Assembly: GCA_023231475.1 (NCBI GenBank)
Contig: JALJEE010002173.1
Coordinates: 1 to 31,310, forward strand
Reading direction: 5' to 3'
DNA from: Seison nebaliae
Taxonomy: Eukaryota; Rotifera; Pararotatoria; Seisonacea; Seisonidae
DNA length: 31,310 nucleotides
Shown here: piece after piece, positions 1,591-30,732 of the stretch
Layout: each line of letters begins with the position of its first letter
Numbering within the stretch: the stretch's first letter is position 1
Program-made: the position numbers and the translations under genes
Notes under the pieces: model-generated
Database searches by the model: none
Told to the model about the DNA's origin: nothing
The model's input: the letters and a program-made list of their open reading frames with translations, nothing else

Positions 1591-1927
1591 TGTTTGCGAT
1601 CAATGAAGAAATGATTCGGTTTATTGACGATACCTTGAGAGAGACCCGTTCCATGAACTTTCACTTGATCGGCACTTAATCGATCAACACTGTTAACTAC
1701 TATCGGCTCTGCTCCTAATTCGATGCCATTGATATATGGCTGAATAGTATATGGTCCGTGCTCTTGCACATTAAACTTTACATTATATCCATCAGTTATC
1801 GGAGTAATCAGTGCATTCTGTGTGGCACCACTCGGCATCGTTATTAGAACGGATACATCTTCTTCTTTTATGTCTCCGGCTGGTGCTGTTATCAAATTAA
1901 ATTCGGTCGGTTGTCCGACTGCCGGAG
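1..1927 (-). CDS. Filamin exon 3 (partial): Ig repeat 7, start of repeat 8, then acidic tandem repeats
   Basis: The acceptor is TTGATAATAG at 1928-1937. I translated 1927-1321 codon by codon with no stop; the rest of the frame reads the same repeat motif to the window edge. First comes the remainder of Ig repeat 7 (ends EPIVVNSVD), then the start of repeat 8 (ADQVKVHGTGLSQG...FFID). After RKHPLRDGSDGEEDG and a KKKK patch it enters the Asp/Gly repeats listed separately. Possible cryptic donors (GATG|GTAGTG, GATG|GTGAAG, near 1575-1585) could allow an isoform that leaves the repeat tract out. Confidence 0.85.
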
Positions 1928-4900
1928 CTATTATCAAAAATAGATTTATTAATTATCATCTCATCTCTCAATTGATCGTTATGAGAATAGAAATCTCTTT
2001 TTTTTTAAACAAATAATCGGGCAGGCAGGATAAAAGAAAGATCAATTTCAAATGGTTCAAATTCAAAATTTCTAAAGAGGATCAAAGCGGAATAGAATGA
2101 ATCATCAAAGCTGAAAAATTCGTTTTCTTTAAAATTTCTAATTCCAAATAAAAATTCGTTTTCAAAAAAAAACTTTAAAATTTCCTTTAAAAACTTATTT
2201 TATGAGTTTCAATTTAATCTCTTTCGAATTGATTCCGAAGTTAGATAATTTTTTCTATCTAAATTTTAGATAATAACAAATTGTACAAACTTGAATCGAG
2301 TCCCGTCACTTTCACTCGACTGACGTCGATCGATGGTTCCACATCGACATGTAACGGACTAATCGGAATTGGCTTGTCGTTGAAGAGAACGGTGATCTTA
2401 TGCATTCCTGGCACTTGAGGTGTATAGGTAATAAGGAATCTTCCGTCTTTCGAATCGTCGATATTGAACATTAAATCACGTCCCTGATTATCAGTTAATG
2501 CGATACTGACATCACCTAAATAAAATTTATTTTTAAATTCATTTTAATTAACAATTTTAAACCTGGACCAGCATCGCGACAATCAACAGTAAAATTAGTT
2601 GGTTGATGTGTCTTGACACCTTTCTCCACTCCCGGTCCATAAACTCGAACACGTGAAGGATTTGACAATTCGTTGGGATTGACACGAAACGGTGATTTTG
2701 GTACTGACACTCCACCATATGTCACCATAATAGTATGACGACCAGTTGTTACAGGAATATAACGACATTGATATGTTCCATCACCCATATTTCTCACATT
2801 CACATCAACTGGATTATATTCATTATCTAGACATGTGACGGACAAAGGAGCATCACCAGCATCTCGAGTATCGACAGTGAATTGTGCTGGTTGAGTAACG
2901 ATGGGAGTGTTTGGTTCAATACCTGGTCCATAACAACGGATTCGTGATGGATCAAATCGTCCCGATGATTGTAACGGTTTCGGTTCTATCCATGCCATAT
3001 ATGGTGAACCAGGAATATCTTCATCATCACATAATATGTGTACAGCATATTCGCCAGGTGCAGTGGGCAAATATGAGACATCGGCACTTCCATCCATATT
3101 ATCTTGACAATCAATTTTCGCTTGAGACGGTCCCTCAATAGAAAATCCTAATGATCCCGTTTCCATATTTGTCTCTACTACGAAATTGGCTGGATAACCG
3201 ACAACGCCACCCTCCAATCCTGGACCGAATGCTCGAATTGATGATTGTTTAAATGGTCCCACATTCACTGTGTAAGGTGATCTCGGTGTTTGACTACCAC
3301 CATACATCACATTAACTGTATAGACTCCAGGTTTCTTCGGATTATATCCACATTCATATGTATCGACTGAAATTCGTGATACTCGACATTCTACATCTTC
3401 ACCATCTGGTCCGGTAACGGAAACTTTCAAATTTCCGTCACCAGCATCTTTCGTCACTACTTTGAAATCGGCGATGTCACCAACACGTACTCCGTGTGGC
3501 TGAATTCCTCGACCATAAACTTTAACTTTTCGTGCGTCATATGACGGTGCCACATTAACACCATATGGTGATAATGGAATTGGTTGAGATGCGAAGAAAA
3601 CGTTCACTGAATGTAATCCTGGTTCCTTCGCCACATATTCACATCGATAGATTCCTGGTGATGTTTGTCGAATTTGACATGGAACTGTCTCTCCATTATT
3701 CTTTGGAGATAGAATGGCAACATCAACATGACCGTTACCAGCGTCAGTTGTATCGATATCGAAATATGTCGGTTTATCAACGACAACTGAACCATGAGCT
3801 TCTAATCCGGGACCGAAAGCACGGACACGACTAGAATCACCAACTTCACCTTCCACTTTGACGTTATAAGGAGATTTCGGTACTTCCTCTCCACCATATT
3901 TCACTATAACACGATACATACCTTCCATTGTTGGTATATAAGTACAAGAATAAGTTTTCGAATCGTCATTGTAAACGATGTCGATGGGTTCGCGAACACC
4001 TCGCGGATTTAACACAATAACTTCTGGTTGACCTTTTCCAGCTTGAGTGACATCAATTGTAAATTTGGCCGGTTCATTGACATGATTGCCAATCGGTTCA
4101 ATTCCTTTTCCATAACATCGTACACGTTTCGCATCAGTTCTTGGACTGAGTGGGGCGGAAGCTAACGGTTTAGCTGAAGGATATTGTGAGAGATAAGTCA
4201 TCATACTTTCTTGATCAACTTTCGGATCCACCATTTCTTCCGGTCGAATTAATTGTGGGACACCTAACCATTGTTCCGCCAAATCCATAGCGTCACGAGC
4301 ATTATTCAATGGTTCGGTCTTCTTGTTTAATCGCCAATCAGGATAGAGACCTGGTGCACACGAATCAACTAGAGCACCAATCGCTTGGCCATCATTCCAA
4401 TCAGTAGTGAAATTTCGAATGGGCAAATCGGGTGGCAATTTACCTTGAACCCATTGAAGCAATTTCTGTTTTGGAGATTGACGATCCTCCTCTTCTTCCA
4501 AACCTTCCCATATGGGCAATGAGATGGAGTAATGTAGAATTAACGTCCAAATCAAACCCAAAATCAATTTGAGACGGCCATCAACAATATCCGTCGCATC
4601 AATATTAATGAGAGTGACACCTTCGCTGTGTTCTAAGAAATCGAGAGCGATAGCCACATTCTCCATCTTCTGTGAACGGAAAGACGGCTTCTTATTATGT
4701 CTCGGCAATTTCTTATGAGATAACAATTCGATTAATGCGATTAAATTGAGACCGTTCGATAAATCCCATTGCAAATCATTAATTTGACGATTGATTATTT
4801 TGAGATGTTCATTCGCCCATCTAGTGAAAGTATTCTGTTGAATTCGTTTCCATGGCGCATCATCGGCCAATTCACGTTGCATCTCATCATCGATCTCTTC

Positions 4901-4951
4901 TTCAGTCCGATCGAATTCGTTAATTTCATCATTATAACCGTTTTGATCCAT
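1..4951 (-). CDS. Filamin (actin-binding, CH + Ig-repeat protein), 5' part, three exons, 3' end off window
   Basis: Joins 2563-4951, 2291-2515 and 1-1927 (at least 1,513 codons). Filamins dimerise, cross-link F-actin and tether membrane receptors to the cortex. Seen: acidic leader (residues 1-30), CH1 at about 37-143 (starts near RIQQNTFTRWANEHLK), CH2 at about 160-256 (ends MMTYLSQYP), then filamin Ig repeats from about residue 273, each opening like RVRAFGPGLE and closing like PKSPYNVKV. Seven repeats are complete. An eighth opens (QVKVHGTGL...NHFFID) and then changes into an acidic repeat tract that is still open at position 1. The start at 4951 has A at -3 and G at +4; an in-frame TTG at 4969 is not needed. 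There are two CH domains, as in cheerio and vertebrate FLN; the fly paralogue jitterbug is the alternative, so I give no symbol. Family call near certain; orthology uncertain. Confidence 0.95.
2291..2515 (-). CDS. Filamin exon 2: rest of Ig repeat 6, start of repeat 7
   Basis: 225 bases (75 codons, phase 1 to phase 1). It encodes DVSIALTDNQG through PGMHKITVLFNDKPIPISPL, the typical second half of a filamin Ig repeat, then the first strand of the next repeat (SRVKVTGLDS). The donor is TCAA|GTTTGT. The next intron (1928-2290, 363 bp) is AT-rich and ends TTGATAATAG. The junction restores DSTPAVGQPTEFN, so the frame is kept. Confidence 0.9.
2563..4951 (-). CDS. Filamin exon 1: CH1, CH2, Ig repeats 1-5 and start of repeat 6
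   Basis: 2,389 bases, 796 codons plus one base. It starts at the ATG at 4951 and ends ...GATGCTGGTCCAG before a GT donor at 2562. Reading past the donor gives 15 low-complexity residues and a stop, which marks the intron. Both CH domains and five whole Ig repeats lie in one exon. The CH1 helix with TFTRWANEHL and the DIVDGRLKLILGLIWTLI segment are strongly filamin-like. The intron that follows (2516-2562) is only 47 bp and ends TTTATTTAG; the joined codon is G|GT (Gly), restoring the repeat-6 sequence DAGPGDVSIAL. Confidence 0.93.
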
Positions 4952-4953
4952 TA

Positions 4954-4976
4954 TTGCTGAATTAATCAATTAGAAA
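4954..4976 (-). other. Possible 5'UTR splice acceptor just upstream of the filamin ATG
   Basis: On the minus strand the bases before the ATG read TTTCTAATTGATTAATTCAG, then CAATA and the ATG. A CTAAT branch-like sequence and a terminal CAG five bases before the start codon suggest that the first exon is non-coding and lies upstream. The sequence alone does not prove this. Confidence 0.35.
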
Positions 4977-11749: not shown

Positions 11750-12303
11750 AAAGTTAATGGGATAATTGTCCCCAAACTTAAGTGACCCTGACTTTAAAAC
11801 CGCTGCTTCCAATGAGATAAATAAAGCTTGTATATTCAATGTAATATCGTCTCAGACTAATTGGAGGAACGATGAATAAACTTTTCTCTAGATGATTTGA
11901 TCCATGAATAATTTTCGATTGGTGCGTTTTACTATGCCTCAAAGTGAAAATGGAAATAGAATCATTATAGATCTAGAAAAAAGTTTTTTCAAAGTTTTGT
12001 ATTTTATTTTTAGCATGATTGGGCGATATTCGCCCACAGCCAAGATTGTGGAGGATTATCGATTGCCGGGGGAGATATGTCAGATACGATGATGACACCC
12101 AAGTAAATTCTACTTACCTAAATTGGAGTCTGGTAACAGGTGAAATGTGACAGACCAGTACTCCAAGAGAAGGTGTCCGTATTTCCCCCAGTTTCGTAGT
12201 CTTCTTATAAGGGTTCTCGTTTGAGTAGTAGGCAGAAACACGATGATGTCGTGTTGGTCTCGACGTTTCATTAACGGCGAAGTAAAAGGATAATGGAAAC
12301 AAA
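11750..12303. other. GC-richer block in intergenic DNA, content unknown
   Basis: Base composition shifts visibly here (tracts such as GATTGCCGGGGGAGAT and CCGTATTTCCCCCAG). A segment at 12015-12104 is flanked by TTTTATTTTTAG and AA|GTAAAT, so it could pass for an internal plus-strand exon, but its translation matches nothing I know and has no partner exon. A hairpin TGGGCGA-TAT-TCGCCCA lies at 12020-12036. It may be a decayed mobile element, a lone exon of an unseen gene, or a regulatory block. Confidence 0.3.
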
Positions 12304-12420
12304 CAAAGTTCCTACTAATATCAAAGTTCCTACTAATAACAAAGTTCCTACTAATAACAAAGTTCCTATTAATAACAAAGTTCCTACTAATATCAAAGTT
12401 CCTACTAATATCAAAGTTCT
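12304..12420. repeat. 18-bp tandem repeat, six copies plus a half copy
   Basis: The unit is CAAAGTTCCTACTAATAA, alternating with a version ending AT, starting at 12304, 12322, 12340, 12358, 12376 and 12394, with a partial copy at 12412. Copies differ at one or two positions. Because 18 is a multiple of three, it gives an open plus-strand frame of KVPTNN units, which I take as a by-product. It sits 260-380 bp past the stop codon of the giant EGF gene. Confidence 0.9.
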
Positions 12421-12622
12421 CAAATCAAATCTTCTTCAAGCAAACAAATTAAGCAATCGAACGAATGATAATCATCTGATAAATATTCCAATTGGGATTT
12501 ACCTATCAATAATAAATTTATCTATTTCTCAATATTTTTTTTTCAATAAATTTAAAAGAAATTTTCTTTTCTAACAAAATAAAGTGACTACAATTTATCT
12601 TTTATAAAAGAATATCATATTG

Positions 12623-12682: not shown

Positions 12683-15600
12683 TCAGTTTCTTTCGATTAG
12701 CTTCCAGAGATTATTTTTCGTTGGATCAACGATCATTTGATCGTTCTGCCAAAATTGGAGAAATAATCGATACTTTGATTGAGAATAATTGACTGGTTGG
12801 ACGTATACGATTTGGACGGTGGCGTTGACGGTTTTTAGTGATTTTTGCCAATCATTTTCTAATCGTCTTAATTGATCTCGATCCTTCACAATTTGAACGA
12901 TTCGGTACGTATTTTTCAAATCGATTAAATTAATCGAATTTTCAACGAATTCAATTGATTCATCAATTTCTTTAATAATTTTCTTCGTTTCAGTTAACGC
13001 CTCAATTTGATCAACATATATACCGATCGATTCATTCTTGTTCTCATTGTTCAACATACAATATCTCGTTACTTCGATCAATTTATTAGTGAATGTTGCA
13101 TCATTCTTATTAACTTTTGCTGATCGATTGATTAATTTTATACTGATATTCTTCGATCGGAAATATTCAGAATTATTAAACGAATAATTTACAATTTTTT
13201 CTATTAAACTTCTTTCTAGTCGTTGTCGAGTATTGATATCGAAACAATTATCAGTATCATGTATCATTGTAGGTAGGATTCTTAAATTCATCTTCTCAAT
13301 AATCGATTTCAATTTATCGATATTCCTCTCATCGTCTGTGTGGAAGACTAATCGAAGAATAGTTGATGGAGTTTCGAGATTTGATTTCGTGTTTTCCATT
13401 TGTTGAATTCCAATTAATTCAATTCCTGATAATTTTTGCTCGTTTATCCGTTGAATAATTTTTCGTTGATTTGGTGATTTGATGGTTTTGATAATATTAA
13501 TGACAAACTTGTTCATTATTGAATGAATTCCATTATCCAATTGAAATTGATAATTTTCCATATTCTTTTTCCAAATATCCAGAATTTGTTTTTGTGAAGG
13601 TAATTTTAAGATTGCTGCATTTAATTTCTTATCCAGATAATGATCAATTTGATAATATAATCGATCGACTGGTTGTTTGTTTTGATTGAAATAAAGTTGT
13701 TTTATCACAAACAAAAATTTCAATGAATTATTTTCCCAATTTTGTGATAAGATGTCGAATAATTTTTTGTAATTGATCAATCGATTTTGTTTGTGACGAA
13801 TATCTAAAAAGTAACAATTGTCTAATGAAATTATTTCATTTCCTTCTTGTGAACGTTCGATTGGAGAATAGGATGTTGGATGTTTTATTTGGAACATCAT
13901 CGGAATTCGTTCGATCATTTGCACGTTCATTCGATAAGCGGCGTAACTTTTTCTCAATGTTCGACTAATCATCGGGAATGAACTGACATAAGAAATATAT
14001 AAATTATCTTCATTTAATTCAATTCCATCTGATTCGCATAAAGCCTTTGCAATTCTTTCGTTTTTATTTTTTATATAAAAATCATTATTTTGAATAACTA
14101 ATTTCTGATTAGATCGATCGATTTCATCATTCAAATTGATTTGATATGTAGAATGTGAGAGGGCAGTTGATGTCCAGAAAACATCCAAATAATTTTTGAG
14201 ATGATCTCTTAATAATTTTAATTGGAAACTGGCCCAATAAATTGGCATTTGGAAAAGTTTTCCGTTTCTTTTCGAACAATAATCAGTCGCTTCGACGAAA
14301 TTGTAGAGATTGGAAGAAAAGAAAAAACATTTTTGTTTATTCGGACTTACTTGTCGGAGAGCTGCATTCATCGGACAAATTGGTCCAGGATTAACTTCTT
14401 GATAATTGGAGAGGAGACGACGTTTAGTTAATTCTATCGATTGATTCGAAACATCATAATAAATATTGGAGGGAACAAGTCGAACGAATTGTTTGGAGAA
14501 TAGTTCGAATGTTTCATTACTATTATGTTTGAATTGACATCTGTCACCGTAGACATCATCCGATTGACAATCACAACGAAAATTTTTATCATTCGTTATC
14601 AAACATTTACCAGCATGACATGGATCAGGTTTACATTTATCTTTCTGATATTCACAATATGCACCGGCAAATCCATCCGCACAAATACATGCATTCAATT
14701 GACAATCAAATTTTCCGTTATTCTGACAACTAATGATTTGACATGATATCATATTTTCACAATCTTCCCCATTATAATTCGATAAACAGAAACATTGTCG
14801 TTGATCTTTGTTTATATCATCCACTTTACACGTTCCACCATTTCTACATGGTTTCTTTTCACAAATGTTTATTTTTTCTGCACAATCATCACCATAATAA
14901 CCGATAAAACATTTGCAATAATAATTGGTAGTATCAAATAGAATACAATGACCAAAATGACATGGATCTGACACACATGGATTAATTATCTCTTCACATT
15001 GTCGTCCACTAAAACCTGGGAGACATTCACAATAAACATTCTCATCATGTTTTTTATTGATCTCAATACATTTACCCGAATTCTTACAATAGTTGATTTC
15101 GGGATTGCACATACTCACTTCACAAAATGTTCCTGTTCTATCAAAAGGACAAAGACATTTATATGTGTTCAATAATGAGACGCAAGTCGAACCGGTTTGA
15201 CATGAATGTTGATAACAAGACGTTTTCTCAAATTCACAATTGATACCATGATAAGCATTTGAACAAGCACACTCATAACGATCGATCGCCGACTCTAAAC
15301 ATTTCCCACCATTTTTACATGGATTAGATGCACATTCATTGATATCGATAGTACACGACTCACCAGTCATTCCTTTCGGACATAAACATTTCCGTTCATT
15401 CTTCGGCAAATTGATACAAGCCGCTTCTACTCCACACGGATATTTCTCACAAGCTGATAATTCTTCTGAACAATGAACTCCCGAATATCCTCGACTACAA
15501 ATACAACGGAAATCTACTTGATTATTATCATTGATACATACACCACCATTCTGACAAGGACGACTATAACATGAAGGTAATTTCTGTTCACAATACTTTC

Positions 15601-18600
15601 CACTAAACGGATTTTCACATATACATTTATAATTCGGTTGACTACTTAAACATTTGCCATTATTTTGACAATTATGTTCGAAACAATTGTCCATTTCCAA
15701 TTCACAATCATCACCCGTTTTTCCGGGTACACATGAACATACTGGCTTCCTGTCGACGACATAACACTCTCCAGAATTAGAACAAACATGTCCAGCACAA
15801 TAATTCATACGAATGGTGCAGAATTCTCCTTCATAATCGATATAACATTGACAATTGAAATTTGAATTATCTTTACTCACTTCACATTTCCCATATTGAC
15901 ATGGATTGGAGAGACAGGGATTCTTTCTGAATTCACAATTCTCTCCATAATATTCATGAGATAGACAAGAACATAGATATCGATATTGATCGATTGATGA
16001 ACATTGTGCACCGTTTTGACATGGAGTTTTCGCGCATGGATCTAAACTAATTTCACATAAAGATCCCGTAGTTCCATATGAGCATAAACAATGTGCTGTC
16101 AATCCATTAATCGTCTGACAATGGGATGGTGATATTTGTGAACATTGTTGTGTTTGACAACCACCATAAAACTTATCACAAAATTTACCACCAAAACCAC
16201 TCGTACATTGACATTCGAATTTTCCGTTAAATAAATCAATGCATTTACCTTTACTGTTACATGGATTGGACGCACATGGATTCATCAGTTTCTCACATCG
16301 TACACCATAATATGGTGTGACACAGAAACAACGTTTCTGACAATAATATTGTTCACATGTTCCTCCATGTAGACAATAATCGGATGAACATTGGAAAATT
16401 TTCGTTTGACAATTCCTTCCCGTATATCCGACAGGACAATCACATCGATAACTATAATGCATCGGATAACATTTACCTTGATTCATACAAGGATTCCTTT
16501 GACAAACATGTTCACTACACCCACAAACATTCATCCAACATATATGACATGACGGTACAGGTATGTGAGATATGGGTGATTGGCAATTCTTTCCAGTATA
16601 ACCAGAGAAACATTTACATTTATAATCGTTTGATAATTCGATACATTCTCCATTATTACCACAAGGAAAAGCGTCGCATTTCGGTTTCTTCTTTTCACAA
16701 TTCTTTCCAATGAAATTGTTGAAACATCGACATTCATCTTTTTCACACCATCCATTAATGCAATTCAATTTCGTACAATAAGTTGTCGAAATATATGTCT
16801 CACATAATTTGCCCGTGAAGGATTCAGTGCAAGAACACAAGAATTGTCGATTTCCATCAAATGCGAAACATTTACCGTTCCGACAAGGATTGGAGAAACA
16901 AGGCGATTTTCGTTGGTCACAATTTTTTCCAATAAATTCAGCTAGACAATCACAATATTCCTCATCTTTCCTTCCATCATATCTACCACTTCCTCCATTC
17001 ATACATTGAATTCTAATCAAATGTCTTTCACAATATTTTCCCATTTTATTTCTGGGACAAATGCAAATGCAACCCGAAGTCATACTCAAAGTCGCTTCCC
17101 CATTATTTTGACAATTGATTACTTTCTTACAATCAATTGGTGAACAATCATCATTCGTATGAATGTCTCTACAACTACATTTATATGAATTGATTTTCTT
17201 CATTTTATCGAATTCATTCGAACAAGTTCCACCATTCTTACACGGATTTGATGCGCATGCTAATTCCGTCTTACAAAGAACTCCCGAATAATTCGGATAA
17301 CATTTACAAGAGAATTGTTGAGGACCCAAATTCAAACATTTCCCATATGGAAATCCACCACACGGATTATCTTTACATCCATCCAATGACACTTCACATT
17401 TCGATCCAGTATAATCTTCATTACAAATACATTTATACGCATTGATCATATCGATACATTTAGCGTTATTCTGACAAGGGGATGACAGACATTCATTCAT
17501 TTCAATTTCACAATAATCCCCAACAAATCCATCTAAACATTCACATTTATTTAAAGAATTCACTTTCGCACCATTTGCACAATTTGGTGTTTTCACCTTC
17601 TCATTCTCACAAAACACGCCCATGTATCCCTCCTTACAAAAACAATAGTGTTCCATCGATGTTGATAAAATGAAACATTGTCCACCATTCAAACAAGGTT
17701 CGGCTGAGCAAATACTCTTGCGAATGAGATTCTGACAATACTTTCCAGTCCAATTGGGTGAACATCTACAGAAGCGTTGTCCAGTATTCTCATCAATTTC
17801 ATGATGACCATAAAGACACGTTTCATGTGACAGATATTGGGAACAATCTTTCCCAAAGAAATCTTTCTTACACTTACAATATTTCACTCCAGGTTTAACG
17901 AACATTATCTCTCCATTATTCTTACAGACGAGACCATTTGAGTTGTCAATGAGTTGTGCACAAAATTTGCCAGTGAAACCATATTCACAATCACATTCTC
18001 TTGATGCATCATCATAATAACCACGCATCGAACAATTGGCGTGGAATTCACCCATTTTCTTTTTTTCACATTTTTCCCCATAAAATTCATTGTAACAGTT
18101 GCAATATCGGACATTGTTAAGTACTTGACATTTACCATTATGATTACATAAGTTATCATCACCACAATTGATCGTCTTTATTTCACAACGTGCACCCGAA
18201 TAAATGGAGGATTGACATTTGCATATTCTTTCATTATTCTTCATAGAACATTGACCACCATTCAAGCAATGGTCTTTCGAACATTCAATTTTGACCAGTT
18301 CACATTGCTTACCTGAATATGGCGCCACACAAGAACATTTTCCTTCAGCATTACAATGACCATTATTGAAACAAGGGAACAATGAACATATGTCTTTCTG
18401 TTTAATCTTCTCTGAACAATATTTACCTGTAAACGGAGATTCACAAACACATTTCTCACTGATACAAATACCTCCGTTCATGCATTGACATGAGCCCATA
18501 TACCTCTCGCAATATTCCCCATAAAAATTATTTTGACAATTACAAACGTCTTTACCCATGTTCTGATTCTTTACACATTTTCCATTATTCAGACAATGTC

Positions 18601-21600
18601 TTCGACAAATTCGATCAACCTTTTCACAATATTCACCAATATACCCAAATTTACATTTACATTTTCCTGTGTTTAGTGCTGTATTGGATGTGCATGTTCC
18701 CCCGTTTTCACAAGAACACAAATCCACACGCTTATCACAATAAATGCCCACATAGTCTTTCGGACATATACACATACCACTGGTACCATTGAATTCAATG
18801 CAATTGCCCATATTATTACACTTAGTTTTCTCACAGAAAGTCAATTCATTTTCACAATTCTTTCCATTAAACCCATTTGCACATTCACAATAGTAAGAGT
18901 GTTTTGTCTTCCTACAATTACCATTGTTGGCACACGGATTCGATGCACACTTATCAATGATCCTTTCACAATAAAATCCAGTGAATGAAGATAAACATTG
19001 ACATTTGTGTTCATTGTGGACTATTGAACATTGTCCCCCATTGAAGCACGGATTATGGACCTTACATGATATTGCATTTTCACATTTTCTGCCCCTGAAT
19101 TCCTTAGGACATAGACACATATTTTCACATTCTGTTATTGTCACACATTTGCCCCTTCCACAATCCATATCGTCACATGATTCTTTTCCAATTTTAATTT
19201 CACAATTGAAACCTGTAAATTGACAACCACATAAACACCGATAACCATCTAATTTGTTATCGACACATTTCGCGCCGTTCAAACATGTATTAGTAGTACA
19301 AAATGACGATCTTAATTCACAATATCGCCCTCTATGTCCAGTGTCGTCACACAGACACTTTCTTTCCAAGTTCTCAGTTATACATTTCCCTCCGTTCTGA
19401 CAAGGATTTAATGTTCGACATAAATCTTTCTTGCGGGAGCAGGTTGGACCATAATAGTCGATCAAACAACGACATAAGTAACCTTTCTCCTCATTACTAT
19501 TCTCTTCACATGTTCCATTATTCTCGCATATGACTGTATTACAAATGGCTAATTTATGTTGACAATCTTTTCCAGTAAACGCAGCTCGACATTCACAAAT
19601 ATAATCTTTTCCAAGATTTATACAATTACCATCATTCTTACAAGGTTTAGCGTAACAATGGTCTTTAATTAATTCGCAATATGTTCCATAAAACGGTTCT
19701 TCACATGTGCAGATTTTCTGATAGATATAATCGTTACACGTACCACCATTCTTACAAGGAAACGACAAACATCGACCAATTCTTCCTTGACAATTATATC
19801 CCGTATAGCCAATGGGACATAAACAATATTCGTTCTTACTATTATCCCTAAATTGACAAATACCTTTATTGTAACATGTTTTCGTGCATTTTTTCAAAAT
19901 CTCACATTCATTACCTTCTGTCTGAGATGAACAATAACATTTATATCCGTTATCCGTCTCAACACAAGTTCCTCCATTAAGACACGGCCTTGAAATACAA
20001 TTGACATTTAAACGTTCACACAATTTACCAGACCATCCCGATGAACAACTACAATAAAATGAATTATGATTATATTCGCAATCACCACCATTCTGACAAG
20101 GATTCGAATCGCAAACATTATACTCTTCATCACACAATCTTCCTTTCCATCCCACCAGACATTTACATTTATAATAAAAAGGTTCCAACTCATAATCCGG
20201 AATACAAGTGCCTTTTTTACAAATATTATTTTTGCAACTATCTATTGGAATTGAGCAATGTTTCCCCGTCATATCTTTATTGCAATTGATACATTTCCAT
20301 CCGTCATCATTCGAGATACATTCACCCCCATTTCTACAAGGTGATGATGAGCAGGTATCAATCAGTGTCGGACAGTTATGCCTAATTTCTCCATTTTTAC
20401 ATTTACAAGAACATAACGGTGTGTTAGTGTATATCGGTTCACCATCACCACATGACCCGATAATTTCTCCACAATTTATTTCAGTTTCACAATTAACACC
20501 CGTATATTTATTGTTAGCGCAAATGCAGATATATTCATCACCGAACCGATTATAACATTGACCACCATTTAAACATGGTTTCTTTGAACATGGATCATCT
20601 CGTAGCAATGTACAATTCTCTCCGATATATCGGGAGAAACACTGACACATATCCCCAATCAACATACCATTGACACAGGTCTTTTGTTCTATTTTCTTAA
20701 TTAATTCACAATTATTTCCTTCCCATTCATTCGGACAAATACAAATATAAGACTTTCCGTTATCATCCGGTAAACAAGTACCACCAGAGAAGCATGGATT
20801 TGATGAACAAGCTGATACCGGTTCCGAACATGTTTCTCCAATCCATTGACTTGTACATTTACATCTGTAGTTTTTTTTGTCGATTGGGATACATTGTCCA
20901 TGATTTTCACAATTTCCTTTTTCGCTACAACTGGATTTCTCACAGTTCTCACCAAAATATGGACGGAGACACTTACATGAAGCTGATGAATTAATAATCT
21001 CACAGATACCGTTATTCATACAGTTTTTCATTCTGCAGAGATCTCTCGCAATTTCACAACGTTCGCCAAACACATTCGTTTCACAATTACAAATTGGAAG
21101 ACAATTACTACCAGTTATAGTGGAGGAGCATGATGAATTGCCAAAACAATAATTTTCATTAACACCATCTTCAGTAAGGAATGTGCAAGGATTATATACT
21201 TCTTCACAATATGCACCGGTAAAACATCCACTGCACACACATTTCCCCCCATTGATATTATTGATGAAAGTTCCACCATTTTTACACTTTTTCAAATTGG
21301 CAATCGATTCACAAAACTTCCCCGTATACGGAATTATACAATTACAATAACTTTCCCCGCTTTCCGTAACGTTGCAAAAACCACCATTTAAACACCTCAC
21401 CTTTTCACAGATTTCTTCCTTATTCGGTTCGTTATTTATTGCACATGTCTGCCCATTAAATCCAGAATAACATTCACAATGGAAATTTGGATAATCATCT
21501 TCTACACATTGACCATGAGAATTACATGTATCATTCTTACAACTATTTAATTGAATTGTACAATAAAGACCGGAAAATTGATGGGGACATAGGCACAAGA

Positions 21601-24600
21601 AGTTTGGATATTCGCCTTCTAGACACGTTCCACCATTCGAACAATGAACATTGGCACAAGCAAATAATTTATTTTCACATAATTCTCCAGTAAACCCATT
21701 TGCACATAAGCATTGTTGTTTCATATTTCTTAAAACGCAAGTTCCACCATTCTCACATTTCATTGTTGTACATCGATCCATCTTCATTCCACAATTTTGT
21801 CCTGTGAACAATGGTCGACAACTGCAGAATTCGGTGCCATTATTTAAATAATTTACTCCATCATTTAAACATTGTAGAGAATATAGTGAGGATGGTGGTA
21901 TACATTCGTAATTGTCATTCTCATATTTACACTCTTCGTCTTCCTTACACTCATTATTACAATTGACTACTTGATTCTCGCAGAATGGGCCCGTGTACAT
22001 GGGGGGACAGACACACCTGAATGCCCCATCTCCATACAATGCCATATGACCGTCATTTAAACAGATATTACTCATCAATTCACATCTCGTACCAAAATAA
22101 TATTCGAAACATTCACAATATTCTAAATCCTTCTCCTTATCATAAATACAAGTACCTCCATTATGACAATAAGATTCATGACACGTTTGTCGCTCTAATT
22201 CACAATAAATGCCCTCAAAATTCTTTTCACAATAACAAGTGTTTTCACCCTTCTCATTCATCAAACATCGTCCATGTTCCGTACAGTGATCAACAGAACA
22301 TCTCCTATCTGGTTTGACGAGATGGCAGAAATCTGGTCTTGTATGATGATTACTTCCACAAAAACTGAAATTATCCGTTTCACAATATTTCCCCGATTGA
22401 TATGGACGACATTGACATTCATCTTTATCCTTGTGACAATGACCACCATTACCACAATAGCCTATTTTGGAACAGGACATCTTTTCTTCACAATTCTTCC
22501 CCGAATATCCTTCGCCACATAAACATCGATAGTTACAAGTATTTTCTGCGTCCGGCACACAAATTCCATCATTCTGACAAACAGTTCCCACACAAGGCGA
22601 AGTGTAAATAGTACAAAGTTTTCCCGAAAAACATTTCGGACATATCTGATTTTTTCTCAATTGATTTTGACATCTATCGCCTTCATAATTACTGAAACAG
22701 AAACAATGGTTTTCCTTTTCCATTTCATAGCATCTTCCATTATCGGAACAATATGCTGCAGAACATTTTGGAATGTCGCAATTCTTACCACGGAAATTCT
22801 CATCACATTCACATTCTCCATTCGTACATCTCCCGTTATCATAGCAATCGTCGTAACATGTCGATTTCGATTTCTCACATAAATTCCCAATAAAACCTGG
22901 TGGACAATAACAGACGTTATTCCTGCAGATCCCACCATTTTCACAAGCACATTCTCTGCACAATTCACCAGTGTAAATTGTGTGACAATGACACAACGGT
23001 TCCCGTAACGAATAGTAACATGTACCGCCATTTAAACATTGAACTGAATCACATCTCTTATTACACATATCATCATATTCACCATCGGTAGGACATTGGC
23101 ATGTGAAGATATCACCATTCACGATACATGTTCCCGAATTGCATGGATTCGAATGACAAGGATTCCTCTTCTTCTCACAATATTTCCCGTAAAATAATGA
23201 GGTCTTATCGAAACAAATAAATTGTGTGGCACTGATGACATCACATTTACAACCATTTTGACAAGTGACACCTCGACACGGATCTTTCACATTCTCACAA
23301 TAGAGACCGGTGTGAATCTCGGAGCACATACATTTGTCGTTAACACATTTCGCCAAATTCCAACAAGGTTTCTCCGCACAAAATCTTAAAGGTTCTTCGC
23401 AGAACTCTCCAGTGAAGCCTTTCTGACATTTACATGTGATATGCGTTCCGACGCATGTACCATTATTTTGACATTTCACTTTTGAACAAACGGGAACATC
23501 ACAATTCTTTCCCGTGTAACCTGGTGCACATACACATTTGTAACCGAATGGTATCTTTTCACATTTGCCGAATTTGCACGGCGAATATTGACAATGATCA
23601 ATCGCTTGAGAACAATATCTGCCCGTCATTCCCTGTTGACATTTACATTGGAAATTATAGTCACCAATTGGTATGTTAAGACAAGTGGAACCGTTATTGC
23701 AACGTTGAATATCACAAAAATTTATAGGTTCCTTACACGTCTTCCCGGTAAATCGTTCGGTACATAAACATTTAAAACCCTCACCATTCTCAAACTCTAT
23801 GCAAGTGCCTCGGTTCCCACATGGACGACTTAAACATTCATTTATATCTATCTCACAATAAACTCCGAGGAATCCTGGACGACAAACACAATTGAATTTA
23901 TCTGTACCCGATTCACATGTCGCTCCATTCCGACATATAACTTTTTCACAATAATTCATTTTGAATCCACAATTGGCTCCATAGTAACCCGTTGGACATT
24001 CGCAAATATATGTCTTCCCTTTGTTTTTACAGAGACCATTATTCTTACAATAATTACCGGCGAATGGTAAGGAGCATGGAGGAGGATTATCGCAATACTT
24101 TCCATGAAAACCATTGGAGCATTTGCAAAAGAATCCATTGGGACTCTGCAGACAAACACCATTAGGCCCACACGATATCCGTCGACAATAATCAATTTTA
24201 CTATTACAGTTCTTCCCACCCCACCCATTATTACACTCACATCGATATTCACATTTATGTACATCATAATCCGTTCGATTAAATTCAGTTATTTCCGAAT
24301 ATAATAATCGACATACACCACCATTATAACAAGGATTTTTCATACAAGGATGAATATAAATATCACAAATATTCCCTGAATAACAATCTTCACATTCACA
24401 TTTGAACGATCCCAACGACTGTCTTCTACATCGCCCATGCTCACAAGGATCGTTCTCACAACCATCAATTTCTATATCACATTTATCTCCAATAAAACCG
24501 CGAAAACAATGACATTTGGCAATGGCGTTATCAAATACACAAAGGCCATGTTCACACATGTTATTATTGAGACATTCATTTTTTACATCATTACAATATT

Positions 24601-27600
24601 TCCCACAATATCCTTCCGAACATTCACATTCACATTTATCATTTGACAATTCTACACAACGTCCAAATTGACATGGATGTGCATCACAACAACTAATTAG
24701 TTTCTCACAATTCTTCCCATGATAATTCTTCGAACATTCACACGTATAAGTAATGCGACTATTATGGCAGGTACCGTCATTAAGACAAGGATTCGATTGA
24801 CAATAATCGACCTTTACGCAATTTGATTGACCGGTGTAACCGTGACGACACGAACAATGAAATTCCAAATTATCTTTTGCTTTATTTCGCACGAAACACA
24901 CACCGTTCTGCCCACACGGCGAAGATAAACAAGGAGATAAATGTTCTTCACATTTATCGCCTGTAAATCCGGTGGCACAAATACAGATAACTTTGTCATT
25001 CTTATATCGACATAATCCATCATTCTGACAATAATCATCACATAGATGTTTCCCACAATTCCATGTATGATAACCAGGTAAACAATCGCAACAAGGACCA
25101 TTATTAGTATCTTTACAGTGACCAAATTTACAAAAATCAGAATTAAATTCACATAAACTAATCAGTTGATCACAATACTTTCCAATATAATTCTTCTTAC
25201 AATTGCAATGATAAGAGGTTTGATCCCAATTCTTTTCACAATAACCGTTCACACAACCATGATTCTTACAAACATCAATCGGTTGCCTACAAAATTCACC
25301 TTTAAAACCAATGTAGCAAGTACATTTGACTTTGTTGAAACCGACCATTTCACAACTTCCATGTACGCAAGGATTCGATATACAATGGTCAATGACAATG
25401 TCACAATTCTTACCAGTATAACCGACATTACAAATACATTCGTACAATTCCCCATTTCCATTCTCGACGGACAATCTGTTACATTTCCCTTCCCCACAAT
25501 ATCGTGTCTCACAATAATTGATTAGAGTTTCACATCGTCTTCCCGTATAATGATTTCTACAGTTACATTTGTAACCATTATTGGTCTTTATACAATCACC
25601 ATAATTCTTACACGGACCAGACAAACAAATATCGAAAGGAAATTCACATGTCTCTCCATAGTAACCGACTTCACAAAGACATTTCGGTTTTCCTCCCACA
25701 ATTGCACATTTTCCATGATAGCAAGTGAAAGATTCACATTTATCAATAACATTTTCACACATTTTCCCCGTGAATTCTTTTCGACATAAACATTTATAAA
25801 CATCTTTGCGATTACCTAACACTTGACAAGTGCCGCCATTCAGACATTTATTTTCACAAACATATTTCGAACAAATTTTCCCATAACGTCCTTTCGGACA
25901 ATGGCAAACATAATCCGGTTTTCCTTTGAATAGAACGTTGTCACAACGAGCTGCATATTCACATGGATTGGTGGAGCAGGGTGAATTATCCGTTTCACAA
26001 TTAAAACCTCCATACCATAAAGGACATATACAATAATATGTTTCACCATCATTAATACAAGTGGCTCCGTGTTGACACGGTTCCTTCTCACAAGGATTAA
26101 CGAATGTTTCACAATTCTTTCCAGTAGTACTGAGAGGACAAAAACATTTATATGTTCCTGGAATAATGATAGAACACGTACCATGATTCTGACACGGTTT
26201 CGATAGACATATCGGAAGAAGTGAATCACAATATTTCCCCGTAAATCCTACATCACATTCACAAGAGAAAATATTCGTCTCATCATCGTTGACACATTTT
26301 CCATTTCGACACGGATTCCTGATACATCGATCTACCACATTTTCACAATGATGCCCATGGTAATTTGGTAGACAAAGACAAGTGTAAGAACATCCGATAC
26401 CGCTTGGGATACACGTACCTCCATTACATAATTGATCGTTACATAAGGATTTTGGATTTTGACAATTCAAACCTTCCCAACAGTCGGTGCAGACACATTC
26501 CGGTTCGTGTTCGTCGTTCATCGAACATGTACCTCCATTGTGACAAGTGTCGATTTGACATCGATCAATTACTAACTCACAATAGACACCAGTGAAAGTG
26601 GCAGTACATTGACAGTGAGAAGAACCGTCAATGTTAAAAATGCATTTGCCATCATTCTTACATAAATTGGTGCATGGTTTCAATCGTTCGTCACAATTCT
26701 TTCCAATCCAATGATATGGACAAATACATTCATAATCCTTCTCATTTCTCAACACAATACAATTACCATTATTCTTACAAGGAGACGAATGACATGGATG
26801 ATTTATTTGACCACAATCAATACCAGTAAAACCTTTCTGACATAGACACGACCAAGTTAAATTCGAATTGATGATACATTTCCCATTATATTTACATGGT
26901 TTCGATTCACAAATATTTATATATTTCTCACACAAATCACCCGTGTAATCGGGTAAACATCGACATAAACATTTATGTTTATTCTCACCAATCTCTTCAA
27001 CATCCCGATATCCATTTTGACAATTGATTGCACATTTCTGCTCATCAGGAATGTTACATGATGCACCGACATATATCGTATTGATGCAACTACATTTGTC
27101 ATCGATACACTCACCGTGAATGCACGTTTCGCCCATCACACAATTGACAGTTTTATTCATACATTGCTTCCCACTAAATCCATAAGGACAATCGCAATAA
27201 TAATCAGAAATATCTTTATTGATACAAACGCCATCGTGGGCGCATGGAAGCCTTAAGCACGGATTAATCTGTTCGCATTTCTCACCATAATATGGTATTG
27301 GACATTCACATCGAAAATTATGAGAATATTCACCCGTAATACATTTACCGCCATTTTGACAAGTGTTTGCAGTTGGTGAACAGATATACACGTACTCACA
27401 ATGATCTCCATAATAATCGTCTAGGCAGTTGCAGTGCACAGCTGTTGCATTAATTCTGGTGCATGTACCTCCATTTTCACATTTATGATTTGAACAAGAT
27501 GCTATTGGTACTTCACAACGGACACCGGTGAATCCTTCGACACATAAACATTTGATAAGTGTTCCATGCATATTACAAGTACCACCATTCTCACATGTAC

Positions 27601-28521
27601 TATTAGTACAATAATTCACTTGTGTCTGACAATAGTCGCCGGTATGTGTCAACGGACACACACAACGTTCTCCTCTCGTATCGATATCACATTTTCCTGT
27701 ATTACAGTAGATTGATTCTTTATTGTCACACGTTTTCAATTCATCACATAATTTTCCTGTCCATGGTGAGAAACAATCACAGCTGTATATCGATTCATCG
27801 AACACCATACGTCCAATACACTTCCCATGCCCACACGGTGATGAAGCACAAACATTTATTCGCTGTGCACATTGTTGTCCAGTCCAGCCATTGTTGCATA
27901 CACAGATGAACTTACCATGATTGGACAAACAATTGCCATAGATACATGGTTCGGAATCACATGGATCTCTCATAATATTACATCGATCACCGATCCAACC
28001 GTCATAACATTTACAATATTTATCATCTACACACTCTCCATGTTCACATGGACAGTCATCAAATTTTATATCACACAATAACCCCGTGCGTGTTGCTCTA
28101 CATTGACAATGAGATTCTCCCGAATTATCCGTCTGACAAATTCCACTATGATGACAACCGCTTTCTTTGCAATCTATTCGATCAATATAACTACGTTTTT
28201 CACATTGTGCGCCCGTGTATTCCGTTGGACAACAACACTTCTGATTGAAACACGAACCACCATTGAGACAACCGCCCACTGGACATTCACTATCAATCGA
28301 TTGATCAATTTCACGCGCGTGACACGATTTTCCCACCCAACCATCCTTGCATACTAAAATGTTATTTTTATCACAAGTCCAATGTCCATGATTGCAACTA
28401 TCGACTGCTAAGCAACTGGTCGGTGGTCCGCAATTTTGATTCATGTTATGACATGGACAACAAGTTATTGGTTCGGCTAAATGAAATTGAACACAATTGG
28501 CTGAGAAGGAACATGATACAC
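12683..28521 (-). CDS. Giant EGF gene exon 5: EGF array, lectin-like domain and C-terminus in one exon
   Basis: 15,839 bases open in one frame. The acceptor is GGTCCTAG at 28522. The frame reads VSCSFSANCVQFHLAEPITC before the first internal Met at 28444, then runs without a stop to 12683. No intron is needed anywhere, and domain periodicity is unbroken. A consensus-like donor (CAA|GTAAGT, 14345-14350) lies inside the lectin-like domain but reading through it gives a coherent domain. Plus-strand open frames across this exon are shadows. Confidence 0.92.
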
Positions 28522-29496
28522 CTAGGACCCAGTAGCAATAATAGAAATATAAACTTTATTCAAACTCTAACCGGGGAGACATGGTTTCCACGGAATTTTA
28601 TATTCGCAATTTGGTCCTACACTTCCAATCGAACATGAAACTTTTGACTTTTCTCCTTTTTCGTTCGTGCAATAGAATTTACCTTCACAAATATCATTCG
28701 CTTCACAATAAATTTCACATTCTTCCCCATAGTAATTGTGGTTGCAAAGTGTAACATAAGATACTTCTAGTCTATGGTGTGAAAGAAAAAATTTGTTCGA
28801 ATAATCAACACAATTTCCTATATGCTTTTATAACTGTAAATTCAAAATCTAATTCTTTTTACATAATTTTCATTATAAATAGTAGTATTATTAATTGAAT
28901 ATTATAAAATTAGAGAAATAAATTTTTTAGTACTAACTCTGCCCGATCTGCATAAAGTAGTTTTTTCGTTACGATATCCGAGTCGTCCAAATATTTCTGA
29001 CGAGATTGCACTTTGAAAAAATCAATTTCAATTTGGTAATTTTTCAGCAGCTTATTCGAAGTCCTAACTGCGCTAACTGCGCTAACTGCTATATTCAAAA
29101 ATCTTGGCAATATTTCATTTTCCAGTGAATAGATCAGTTCGATTATTTCTCGAATCTCAAAACCATTTTTTTCTTTATCGATTGTTTTATAGATGGAAAA
29201 TTCTTCGTTGTTTCCACAATCTCCATCATATTCTCTAAATTTAAGAAAATTCATAAAGTGAAATGATTAGTAGAAAATAACTTCGATAGACAAAATTTTA
29301 TACAAAAATCGTCATTTTCTCTTATATCTTCATCGAATCTCACATCGATCTGTGGAATTGTCAATACCGCTTGATGATAAGTAAAATCTCCACATTCCAC
29401 ATGTGGCTAATATAAATGATGTTATAGTTCGACAGAATAGTATAGTTAAGTAACCTGAAATAAACCAAGCAAACAGAATGCAAAGAAAAAATTCAT
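12683..29496 (-). CDS. Giant secreted DSL / EGF-array / C-type-lectin-like protein, 5,519 residues, five exons
   Basis: My model joins 29455-29496, 29282-29406, 28934-29234, 28572-28824 and 12683-28521; the sum is 16,560 bases, exactly 5,520 codons with the stop. Order: signal peptide MNFFFAFCLLGLFQ; MNNL/C2-like region (to about 156); DSL domain (183-229); a second DSL-like half (283-307); about 119 EGF-like modules (320 to about 4905); C-type-lectin-like domain (4956-5071); unassigned C-terminus (5072-5519). SP-MNNL-DSL-EGF is the Notch-ligand order (Delta, Serrate/Jagged), but those carry far fewer EGFs and a membrane span. None is visible here, so I infer secretion. An MNNL region and DSL, and the absence of LNR, transmembrane and ankyrin parts, argue against a Notch receptor. 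The first ATG in exon 5 (28444) is internal, since the frame continues upstream through a spliced junction. Notch binding is inference. Confidence 0.85.
12686..14030 (-). other. Unassigned C-terminal region of the giant protein
   Basis: About 450 hydrophilic residues after the lectin-like domain, with only three cysteines (NCYF, NCFD, RYCM) and several N-glycosylation sequons (NNS, NVS-like, NKS). I see no hydrophobic segment long enough to cross a membrane and no GPI-type tail; the protein ends LWKLIERN. The alternation of predicted strands and helices suggests a folded domain, but I cannot name it. Confidence 0.6.
14031..14377 (-). other. C-type-lectin-like domain
   Basis: Residues 4956-5071: CPMN... 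then KCFFF, an FVEATDYCSKRNGKL helix region, SFQLKLLRDHL, FWTS, and ending AKALCE. This follows the C-type-lectin fold order (two early cysteines, Cys after the first helix, Cys at the end). The inner C2-C3 pair is absent, as are the EPN or QPD and WND calcium and sugar motifs, so calcium-dependent carbohydrate binding is unlikely. It probably acts as a protein-binding or structural module. Confidence 0.8.
14527..28285 (-). repeat. Array of about 119 EGF-like modules
   Basis: Parsed by eye as Cys-defined modules averaging 38-39 residues, mostly C-x(3-4)-PC-xNGGxC...CxC...GxxC (for example CASNPCKNGGKC). About ten are incomplete or atypical, for instance CPKCFSGKLC, CLNDGHMALYGDG and CANGAKVNSLNKC, which lack the first Cys pair or part of the pattern. 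A few are preceded by calcium-binding-type linkers (DINEC before two modules, MNEC before another). Modules are well diverged, so the expansion is not recent. My count may be off by a few. Confidence 0.93.
16505..16560 (-). other. Non-EGF Cys-rich insert in the EGF array
   Basis: Between two ordinary EGF modules lies PVPSCHICWMNVCGCSEHV. It has four cysteines in a CxxC...CxC arrangement instead of the six-Cys EGF layout. It is in frame and flanked by complete modules (CDAFPCGNNGEC and CQRNPCMNQGKC), so it is not a sequencing frameshift. It may be a degenerate module or a separate mini-disulphide unit. Confidence 0.6.
28322..28396 (-). other. Second DSL-like half-domain before the EGF array
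   Basis: CNHGHWTCDKNN followed by VCKDGWVGKSC. The C4-C5 gap (7) and C5-C6 gap (8), with GHWTC and GW, fit the C-terminal half of a DSL domain better than the first domain does. The segment before it (residues 241-282) is Cys-rich but lacks the YYG motif and the C1-C3 spacing. Confidence 0.65.
28572..28824 (-). CDS. Giant EGF gene exon 4: DSL domain
   Basis: 253 bases. The acceptor is TATAAAAG|CAT; an in-frame TAA just upstream rules out the stronger-looking TTTACAG site. It encodes HIGNCVDYSNKFFL, the DSL domain, and ends KIPWKPCLPG. The donor is CCCCG|GTTAGA; the 50-bp intron (28522-28571) ends GGTCCTAG. The junction codon G|GT keeps the frame into exon 5. Confidence 0.75.
28606..28746 (-). 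other. DSL domain (Delta/Serrate/LAG-2)
   Basis: Cysteines at residues 183, 192, 196, 208, 220 and 229. Gaps C1-C2 (8), C2-C3 (3), C3-C4 (11) and C5-C6 (8) match the canonical DSL pattern. C4-C5 is 11 instead of the usual 7. The signature CNHNYYGEECEIYC is present and GKFYC aligns with GHFTC of Delta. Odd points: an extra Cys at 202, and the usual GW before C6 is replaced (SIGSVGPNC). In Notch ligands this domain contacts the receptor. Confidence 0.85.
28934..29234 (-). CDS. Giant EGF gene exon 3: rest of MNNL/C2-like region
   Basis: 301 bases encoding EYDGDCGNNEEF through YADRAEL. It has the length and position expected for the C2-like half of an MNNL domain but little recognisable identity. 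It contains a triple micro-repeat (AVSAVSAVR). The donor GTACTAAAAAA at 28933 is my best choice; GTAACG further upstream is an alternative, so the 3' end is the least certain boundary in this gene. Confidence 0.6.
29282..29406 (-). CDS. Giant EGF gene exon 2: start of MNNL/C2-like region
   Basis: 125 bases encoding PHVECGDFTYHQ through DDFCIKFCLSK. The FCIKFCLSK...C pattern parallels the conserved FFRVCLK...C of the Notch-ligand MNNL domain. The donor is CGAA|GTTATT and the intron (29235-29281) is 47 bp, ending AAATTTAG; both splice sites keep the frame (L-S-K-E-Y). Confidence 0.7.
29455..29496 (-). CDS. Giant EGF gene exon 1: signal peptide
   Basis: 42 bases, ATG at 29496, encoding MNFFFAFCLLGLFQ, a short hydrophobic leader. 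The donor is TTTCAG|GTTACT and the intron (29407-29454) is 48 bp, ending TATATTAG. This frame is chosen because it alone joins to PHVECGDFTY in the next exon; the other open frame across 29330-29515 stops soon after. The -3 base is C, so the start context is weak. Confidence 0.7.
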
Positions 29497-30657
29497 CTGT
29501 TGTCGAAAAATACAATGGAGAATTGATTATAAAAATGTCAGAAAATTTTCAAGAATTTATCGAAATTTTCATCGACGATATAGAAGGAAGGATACAGGTC
29601 GTTCGAATAGTATATCAGATTAATCAAATCTTCAATTAGACTTTCCTTATATTAATGAAATCGAATTGGAATTGAGAAATTAATTAATCATTATTCCAAC
29701 AAACAACAATATGGAGAGGAATGGTGATGAAAGATGAATCATATAATTGATTTGTATGTGAATTAATTGGAATTATTACTTCGTCATTGAGTAAATGACG
29801 AATTCCTTCAATTTAGAAGAATACCAGAATTGATTTTATTTCTTAATAAATATTTGTTTAAGATCTTCCATTTCATCACTCATCTGTCTATCTTTAATTT
29901 ATACAAGAAACCTTCCATACAATCTCAACATATTTTTTTCTCAATTAAAACCTCCAGATTTTTTTCTAAAAAATTTTTATCGAACCATTAAAAGTTTCAA
30001 TGATTCCAAATATTATTCGTTAACATTCATATCGAATGAAATCAAATTTTCTTAAATCATCTTGCACATTAATCATTAATCTTTTGTTGCAAAAGATTGT
30101 GAAAGGTTGAAGGGCAACATGATGTCTGAAATGTATTGAACGAAAATGAACTAACAAATTGTAAATTGAAAGGTCCAAATATTTAGAATTGACGATTCTT
30201 ATTTTCTTCACCAATCACCAATTGTTTTTCTTTCATTTGGCAAATTGAATTGTTTTTTGCATAATGGTATATGTTAAGTTTAATTTGATTTTCTCATACA
30301 ATTAATTATTTTAAGAAAAATTCAACCTTGCTGACAACAGTCTATAATCTTAGACAGCAAATAAATTTGGTTAAGAATGAAATTAGAACGATTCGAATTA
30401 TACATTTGAATGCTAATTGTTAATATATTTATGAACAGAGTTCATTAAAATGATTGTAACTGTTTATTGTTTGAATGGACAATGATGGTCAAAATTGCCG
30501 TCTCCTATGGTTCTATTCACAAAAAATTTCAAAGGCTGACAATTTTCTAAAGTTATATATACAATATGTACCAATATGTACCAATTTGATTAATAATTTG
30601 TATGTGTATAATTATGAAAGAAGAATAATCAATACAAAATCATAAAACTATTATTGT
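29497..30657. other. Non-coding stretch upstream of the giant EGF gene
   Basis: AT-rich with frequent stops in all frames. The 64-codon minus-strand frame at 30020-30214 has no recognisable feature. The promoter of the giant gene should lie here, but no clear TATA or initiator was found. A 10-bp unit CAATATGTAC is repeated twice in tandem at 30562-30581, about 80 bases before the tRNA. Confidence 0.55.
29780..29802. other. Perfect inverted repeat upstream of the giant EGF gene
   Basis: Left arm TTCGTCATT, loop GAGTA, right arm AATGACGAA, with GGAA and TTCC outside it after a bulge. It lies about 285 bases upstream of the start codon of the giant gene. TCATT/AATGA half-sites could bind a dimeric transcription factor, but this is only an inference. 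Confidence 0.5.
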
Positions 30658-30729
30658 GCGTCAGTGGTGTAAAGGTTAGCATGGTTGCCTTCCAAGCAAT
30701 TGATCCGGGTTCGATTCCCGGCTGACGCA
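30658..30729 (+). tRNA. tRNA-Gly(UCC)
   Basis: 72 nt cloverleaf. Acceptor arms GCGTCAG and CTGACGC pair fully, with discriminator A. The anticodon loop CTTCCAA contains TCC. A box TGGTGTAAAGG and B box GGTTCGATTCC are intact. No CCA is encoded and there is no intron, as expected of a nuclear eukaryotic gene. It should be transcribed by Pol III. Confidence 0.97.
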
Positions 30730-30732
30730 AAA

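Follow-up and report, generated by a model that had tools for sequence, protein, structure and literature searches.

Relationship to described proteins

DSL proteins with epidermal growth factor (EGF) repeats are a known kind of protein, represented by the Notch ligands Jagged and Delta (JAG1, PDB 4cbz; DLL1, PDB 4xbm). The window analysed here, the entire contig C677 (31,310 bases) of the 36.0-Mb Seison nebaliae assembly, contains the giant gene SNEBB_000637, whose product shares a signal peptide, a DSL domain and EGF repeats with these ligands. It differs from them in the number of EGFs, which is many times higher (16 in Jagged), in possessing a second DSL, a seventh cysteine in the DSL and an added lectin-like region, and in lacking both a membrane span and a match to the MNNL profile. 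A diverged paralogue in the same genome, SNEBB_005763, resembles Jagged and Delta further in its C2-type cysteine pattern and its membrane span. SNEBB_000637 is already deposited as a hypothetical protein of 5,433 amino acids (aa; P0002 in the protein search). The original prediction for this stretch gave a length of 5,519 residues, whereas a model joined at GT-AG splice sites from the same start and stop comes to 5,500 aa and has no internal stops.

We infer, with a probability of about one half, that SNEBB_000637 is a secreted EGF fibre derived from a Notch ligand, serving as matrix, coat or adhesive, and not an activating ligand. The reading draws on the missing anchor, the loss of receptor-contact residues, the presence in the genome of other DSL genes and of a giant EGF gene without DSL, and the precedents of Dumpy and Mlig-ap1.

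Drosophila Dumpy is described as a matrix protein of >300 EGFs, built largely of three-module EGF-DPY-EGF units (PMC2930355). It is similar to the window protein in its giant extracellular EGF array and differs in its DPY modules and its ZP domain, for which the window protein has no match; no DSL is named in the description of Dumpy. Mlig-ap1 of Macrostomum is described as a secreted, cysteine-rich adhesive protein that is 5,407 aa long and combines a C-type lectin domain with 17 EGFs (PMC6410801). The likeness here lies in the series of EGFs joined to a C-type lectin domain (lectin-like in the window protein), the cysteine richness and the similar size. Mlig-ap1 has VWD, very basic regions and calcium-binding EGFs, whereas the window protein has no VWD match and the calcium-binding lead motif in 3/98 strict EGFs.

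Two DSL domains with tandem EGFs have been described in a ‘Delta-like’ receptor tyrosine kinase of Capsaspora (PMC4810162); likened by description only, this protein differs in its kinase and in belonging to a unicellular relative of animals. Four bivalve giants of 3,190–5,291 aa (P0005 of Sinanodonta, P0006 of Potamilus, P0017 and P0050 of Mya) combine a DSL with EGFs, the DSL of P0017 being known from a precomputed list only. None has a hydropathy peak >1.6 near the C-terminus, the peaks of 2.0 in P0017 and 1.7 in P0006 lying at residues 310 and 730. They differ from the window protein in having 13–15 EGF cores and a long tail that is Ser/Thr-rich by eye, and P0050 matches the MNNL profile. 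A lectin match is not listed for P0005 or P0006 (E up to 1e-5) or for P0050 (E up to 0.1). Of 259 length-matched candidates, 95 proteins came back when a bivalve head was the query, and the precomputed Pfam list names a DSL in four of them, all bivalve; such lists can miss the domain, as those of both Seison giants omit it despite its presence.

S. nebaliae is an epizoic rotifer of the class Pararotatoria whose hosts are marine crustaceans (PMC8351084), and its lineage has been grouped with the parasitic thorny-headed worms (PMC12256650). An arthropod origin was considered and rejected: no Chitin_bind_4 match was obtained, a weak result in itself since the controls gave none either, and the identity of the gene as SNEBB_000637 decided the matter. 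The words Notch and EGF are absent from the main text of two Seison papers. Among the titles and abstract starts listed from the open-licence literature there was no paper on this gene or on any rotifer DSL protein, and no protein with >100 EGFs behind two DSLs and a lectin-like end. The domain order first read is supported, and the deposited model agrees with it. The original claim that no described family has this order has to be narrowed: SNEBB_005763 in the same genome shares it, though with two clear DSLs and a membrane span, and the bivalve and Capsaspora proteins above also qualify it.

Two DSL domains in the head

The predicted DSL domain is real, with PF01414 scores of 30.4 bits for the exon and 26.9 bits within the spliced N-terminus against a cut-off of 24.2. 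It lies at residues 164–212 of the model, not at 183–229 as first placed. A second DSL, overlooked earlier, follows it (Table 1). DSL2 scores 20.2 bits with PF01414 (E 7e-4), which is under the cut-off. Aligned with the second DSL of the paralogue it scores 118 (z 8.1), a value reached by 0/500 cysteine-preserving shuffles, and the paralogue DSL2 is the closest to it when nine DSLs are compared: the four of the two giants, those of the DSL genes on contigs C30 and C77, two from bivalves and one from human. This affinity suggests that DSL2 predates the duplication of the giant genes. The two DSLs of the window protein score 28 against each other, and 58/500 shuffles score as high.

All four giant DSLs contain seven cysteines within the limits we set, in comparison to six in the C30, C77, bivalve and human domains. 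The extra cysteine lies beside the position of JAG1 Phe207. Phe207 and Arg203 of JAG1 are described as part of Notch recognition (PMC5538765), and both are replaced in four of four giant DSLs. For both observations the paralogue DSL1 was aligned and the other three domains were placed by hand. As a guess, the odd cysteines of DSL1 and DSL2 might bond together and so clamp both domains into one composite head.

The region ahead of DSL1 had been labelled MNNL-like. Neither the window protein nor the paralogue is matched by the MNNL profile PF07657, and the label is weaker than stated; for the window protein a slight likeness by eye remains. A profile built from five N-termini, three of them bivalve, led to Notch-ligand chains over C2 and DSL, but the bivalve rows dominate it and it is no test of the window protein.

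The paralogue SNEBB_005763

SNEBB_005763 (P0078), located on contig C644, is a diverged paralogue of 5,677 aa that had also been overlooked. It comprises, in order, a signal peptide, a C2 region, a DSL, EGFs, a second DSL, further EGFs (100 cores in total) and a lectin-like region, after which come ∼1,000 residues, a clear membrane span and a short basic end. Its DSLs score 46.4 and 33.2 bits, or 55.5 bits together, and its C2 region aligns with the bivalve MNNL regions. A single open frame, 1,837 codons long, holds the C2-like region, both DSLs and the start of the array.

This frame bears on the arrangement of the window gene, where exons 1–4, carrying the signal peptide and DSL1, could in principle belong to a gene separate from exon 5. 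These exons are short and are predicted only. Against a division, the phases of the exons join, the deposited model likewise connects exons 1–4 to exon 5 as originally proposed, and the corresponding head of the paralogue is uninterrupted; two genes are thus very improbable.

EGF array

EGF repeats after a DSL and >100 EGF modules are both present in the window protein. The earlier estimate of about 119 modules agrees well with 709 cysteines (709/6 = 118), 111 C5–C6 cores and 98 strict six-cysteine units. To call the array unbroken was fair in general, but 18 gaps of >20 residues separate strict units, many of them containing atypical EGFs. By the calcium-binding lead motif and the O-fucose and O-glucose consensus sequences used here, 3, 21 and 23, respectively, of the 98 strict EGFs are positive. 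Pfam scans of exon 5, run in pieces that cover it fully, returned EGF families, a partial DSL, and Lectin_C and Cir_Bir_Yir below threshold.

A period of three modules over the whole array is equalled by 0/1000 permutations when distances to 12 are considered (five periods tried), by 5/500 when distances to 20 are considered (nine periods tried), and by 2/500 of the latter with cysteines masked. The signal comes from the second half (0/500; first half, 200/500), and is suggestive only. The paralogue array has no three-unit period. The possibility that both giant arrays have a common history was considered and rejected, as a collinear chain of EGF units performs no better than shuffled order (42/200).

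A third giant EGF gene is located on contig C712 (31000–55791, plus strand; loci L021–L023). Its single uninterrupted reading frame (8,263 codons) encodes 208 EGF cores, in which a six-unit period is seen (z 6.9, 0/200), and is preceded by a possible signal-peptide exon. The genome search for DSL found no match in it. In Seison, giant EGF arrays thus occur independently of DSLs and have some role without one. The genome-wide EGF search with the hEGF profile scored 150/420 candidates and gives a lower bound.

Lectin-like region and C-terminal tail

The 614-aa stretch at 12686–14527 has an isoelectric point of 9.2. The lectin-like domain reported within it is weaker than stated: Lectin_C (PF00059) reaches 16.5 bits in a 140-aa piece and 13.5 bits in the 614-aa tail, both under the cut-off of 22.6, and the same 140-aa piece scores 19.7 bits with the Plasmodium family Cir_Bir_Yir, also under its cut-off. 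A two-sequence profile of the window and paralogue regions gave 7/7 PDB matches to LOX-1, a C-type lectin fold, with E from 0.55 to 1.1 at a limit of E 10. The window piece alone gave an anti-CRISPR protein at E 0.72 and the lectin-like CD72 at E 0.77. The elements CP, KC, C, W and a last CE are common to the lectin-like regions of both giants in the alignment, and no canonical sugar-binding motif is seen by eye. We regard the lectin label as suggestive, but it does not reach significance.

When the genome was searched with 439 aa of the window tail, or with 395 aa of the paralogue lectin-and-tail stretch, each piece matched only itself. Likewise, in a protein search with residues 4850–5290 of P0001, the sole match was the gene itself (1/2,302 candidates). 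Two MAFFT alignments, one of the tails at full length and one of the tail plus the lectin-like piece, misregistered the lectin-like region and were set aside.

Membrane anchor

The original prediction that the protein has no membrane anchor is borne out. The highest 19-residue hydropathy in the 5,500 aa is 1.19 and is located in the signal peptide, and there is no span in the deposited model either. A glycosylphosphatidylinositol anchor was considered and rejected on the hydrophilic C-terminus (last 30 residues). The spanned paralogue sharpens the contrast, and for the same reason it is worth considering whether an anchor exon of the window gene has been missed.

Inspection of 12.9–9 kb for a downstream span revealed a hydrophobic open frame at 12274..12435 (minus strand), ∼250 bases past the stop, that is not part of the deposited protein and could serve as a membrane-span exon only via a putative splice. 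An 18-bp tandem repeat of 6.6 copies occupies 12302–12419, its minus-strand frame being a hydrophobic run that ends in RR. With such a 3′ exon, missed or alternatively spliced, the window protein would be anchored after all and act like its paralogue. The paralogue does have its span (hydropathy 2.72) on a separate last exon, the frame at 12435–12274 has a basic end, and position 12998 offers a donor in a compatible phase (donors were listed in the form GT[AT]A only). On the other hand, the frame derives from the tandem repeat, its acceptors are weak by eye, the required intron would be ∼565 bases in a gene whose other introns are 47–166 bases, and the deposited protein stops at 12683. An anchored product is accordingly improbable, though less so than a division into two genes.

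Notch components in the genome

The DSL search of the genome gave five matches, distributed over four genes. Two of these are the giants; the others are a Delta-like gene on C30, which also has an MNNL match of 51.2 bits, and a small DSL gene on C77. Hydrophobic stretches are found in open frames neighbouring both smaller genes, whose exons were not joined, and these two genes could serve Notch. A search for LNRs gave two matches in one gene, C390:46008–50096 (minus strand; loci L016–L017), a Notch-type receptor with a 1,362-aa frame, ankyrin repeats and two LNRs; its NOD match is below the cut-off. The receptor is short, with 629 aa ahead of the hydrophobic span recognized by eye and five canonical EGFs by pattern. 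No calcium-binding lead motif is seen by eye before these five EGFs.

A soluble modulator of Notch ranks next after the secreted fibre. The head would bind the short receptor without pulling and block it, or the protein would be a secreted co-ligand or matrix-held ligand. Consistent with this are the DSL domain itself and a genome-encoded receptor with LNRs, ankyrin repeats and a span; a passage on elegans is also cited for it (PMC6071610). It is opposed by the unmatched MNNL profile and the lack of a calcium-binding lead motif in the receptor. In addition, JAG1 R201, R203, D205 and F207 are all lost in DSL1 and DSL2 of the window protein by hand alignment, R201 and D205 being residues that we take to be receptor contacts. 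A soluble modulator is possible but doubtful.

The disparity between the five canonical EGFs of the receptor and the 100 and 111 cores of the giants could also be read as a matter of reach, in which the double-DSL giants would be ligands of a minimal receptor, the anchored paralogue activating it and the window copy competing. The membrane span of the paralogue agrees with this proposal; the two other DSL genes do not, and it is unlikely, at much the same level as an anchored window protein or a little below it. A broader Notch-acting reading, which overlaps both of these proposals, is a rewired system with swapped array lengths: a five-EGF receptor and double-DSL ligands of 100–111 cores, one an anchored activator and the other a secreted competitor. 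We regard this only as a tentative possibility, on a par with the soluble modulator.

Two further open frames were observed near the smaller DSL genes. One at C77:11060–12409 (minus strand; locus L009) presumably resembles homoserine O-acetyltransferase, judged by eye. Another at C30:18569–20230 (minus strand; loci L011–L012), near the Delta gene, is Gly/Ser-rich, repetitive and silk-like by eye.

Proposed history and role

Under the preferred reading of SNEBB_000637 as a secreted fibre, a Delta/Jagged-type gene would have acquired a second DSL and then duplicated, with EGF blocks multiplying afterwards in both copies. The SNEBB_005763 copy has a membrane span and the window copy has none. The window protein may then be rod-shaped, its ligand-type head and its basic, lectin-like foot forming opposite ends, and be placed in the matrix, a surface coat or an adhesive secretion. 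Activation of Notch by pulling requires an anchored ligand; since the window copy is apparently unanchored, it would probably tether partners instead of activating Notch. The original prediction had offered a Notch antagonist, a matrix-bound ligand or something unrelated to Notch, and among these a matrix or surface role is tentatively favoured.

Several results weigh against the fibre and its proposed history. DSL1 of the window protein scores 82 and 98 with the bivalve DSLs, 79 with the paralogue DSL2 and 63 with the paralogue DSL1, so that DSL2 alone supports the history. The C30 Delta has a loop of 7 residues where JAG1 has 11; because this Delta is also reduced, loss of the JAG1 contact residues cannot separate a ligand from a non-ligand. 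If the protein is purely structural, its retention of a DSL head would call for another reason. Additionally, Pfam scans covering exon 5 found no ZP, VWD or any matrix domain besides EGF. The lectin-like regions of the two giants form a weak pair (66/2000 shuffles score as high), and homology of their tails beyond this region was tried and rejected (376/500 shuffles as high).

According to the force model of Notch activation, the function of a ligand depends on its being anchored in a membrane. Two natural giant DSL proteins, only one of which has a span, occurring beside a minimal receptor, would allow this model to be tested using related heads on stalks that are either anchored or free. Should the giants be matrix proteins, a signalling ligand would have been turned into structural material.

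Gene model and neighbouring features

Five exons joined at GT-AG sites make up the model (Table 1). The minus-strand ATG at 29496 and stop at 12683, given in the original prediction, recur in both this model and the deposited protein. The start, end and exon joins of the deposited SNEBB_000637 are identical to those of the 5,500-aa model, from which it drops two pieces, 51 and 16 residues long and both in frame. The first (153 bases of exon 3) lies within the C2-like region. The second (48 bases, at about 15028–14960 of the window) spans two EGFs, which its removal merges, and its loss is probably an annotation error. We think that both pieces belong to the real protein, since the first restores a length that is paralogue-like by eye and the second leaves two EGFs whole. 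The chance of an open frame as long as that of exon 5 is ∼10^-190 at its mononucleotide composition.

Table 1. Features of SNEBB_000637 in the window (window positions)
Feature	Position	Strand	Basis or remark
Exon 1, with the ATG and a predicted signal peptide (MNFFFAFCLLGLFQ)	29455..29496	-	GT-AG model; deposited start same; signal peptide judged from hydrophobic core
Exon 2, start of divergent C2/MNNL-like region	29282..29406	-	GT-AG model; same residues deposited
Exon 3, remaining C2/MNNL-like region	28938..29234	-	GT-AG model; deposited model cuts 153 bases
Exon 4, contains DSL1	28572..28771	-	Profile match; GT-AG model
DSL1, seven cysteines	28600..28746	-	PF01414 30.5 and 30.4 bits, cut-off 24.2
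Exon 5, single exon of ∼5,279 codons including stop	12683..28521	-	GT-AG model
Degenerate DSL2, seven cysteines (authors’ limits)	28319..28453	-	PF01414 matches second half, 28319–28393
EGF array, 111 C5–C6 cores	14528..28312	-	Outer ends approximate; three-module period in second half (suggestive)
C-type-lectin-like region, degenerate	14030..14377	-	Lectin_C below cut-off; PDB profile matches
C-terminal tail, no known domain	12686..14029	-	Pfam scans

Elsewhere in the window, open frames of filamin type, with CH domains and filamin repeats, extend over 3–4969 on the minus strand and are cut by the left end of the contig. A tRNA-Gly gene (anticodon tcc) is located at 30657–30730 on the plus strand, opposite to and upstream of the giant gene.

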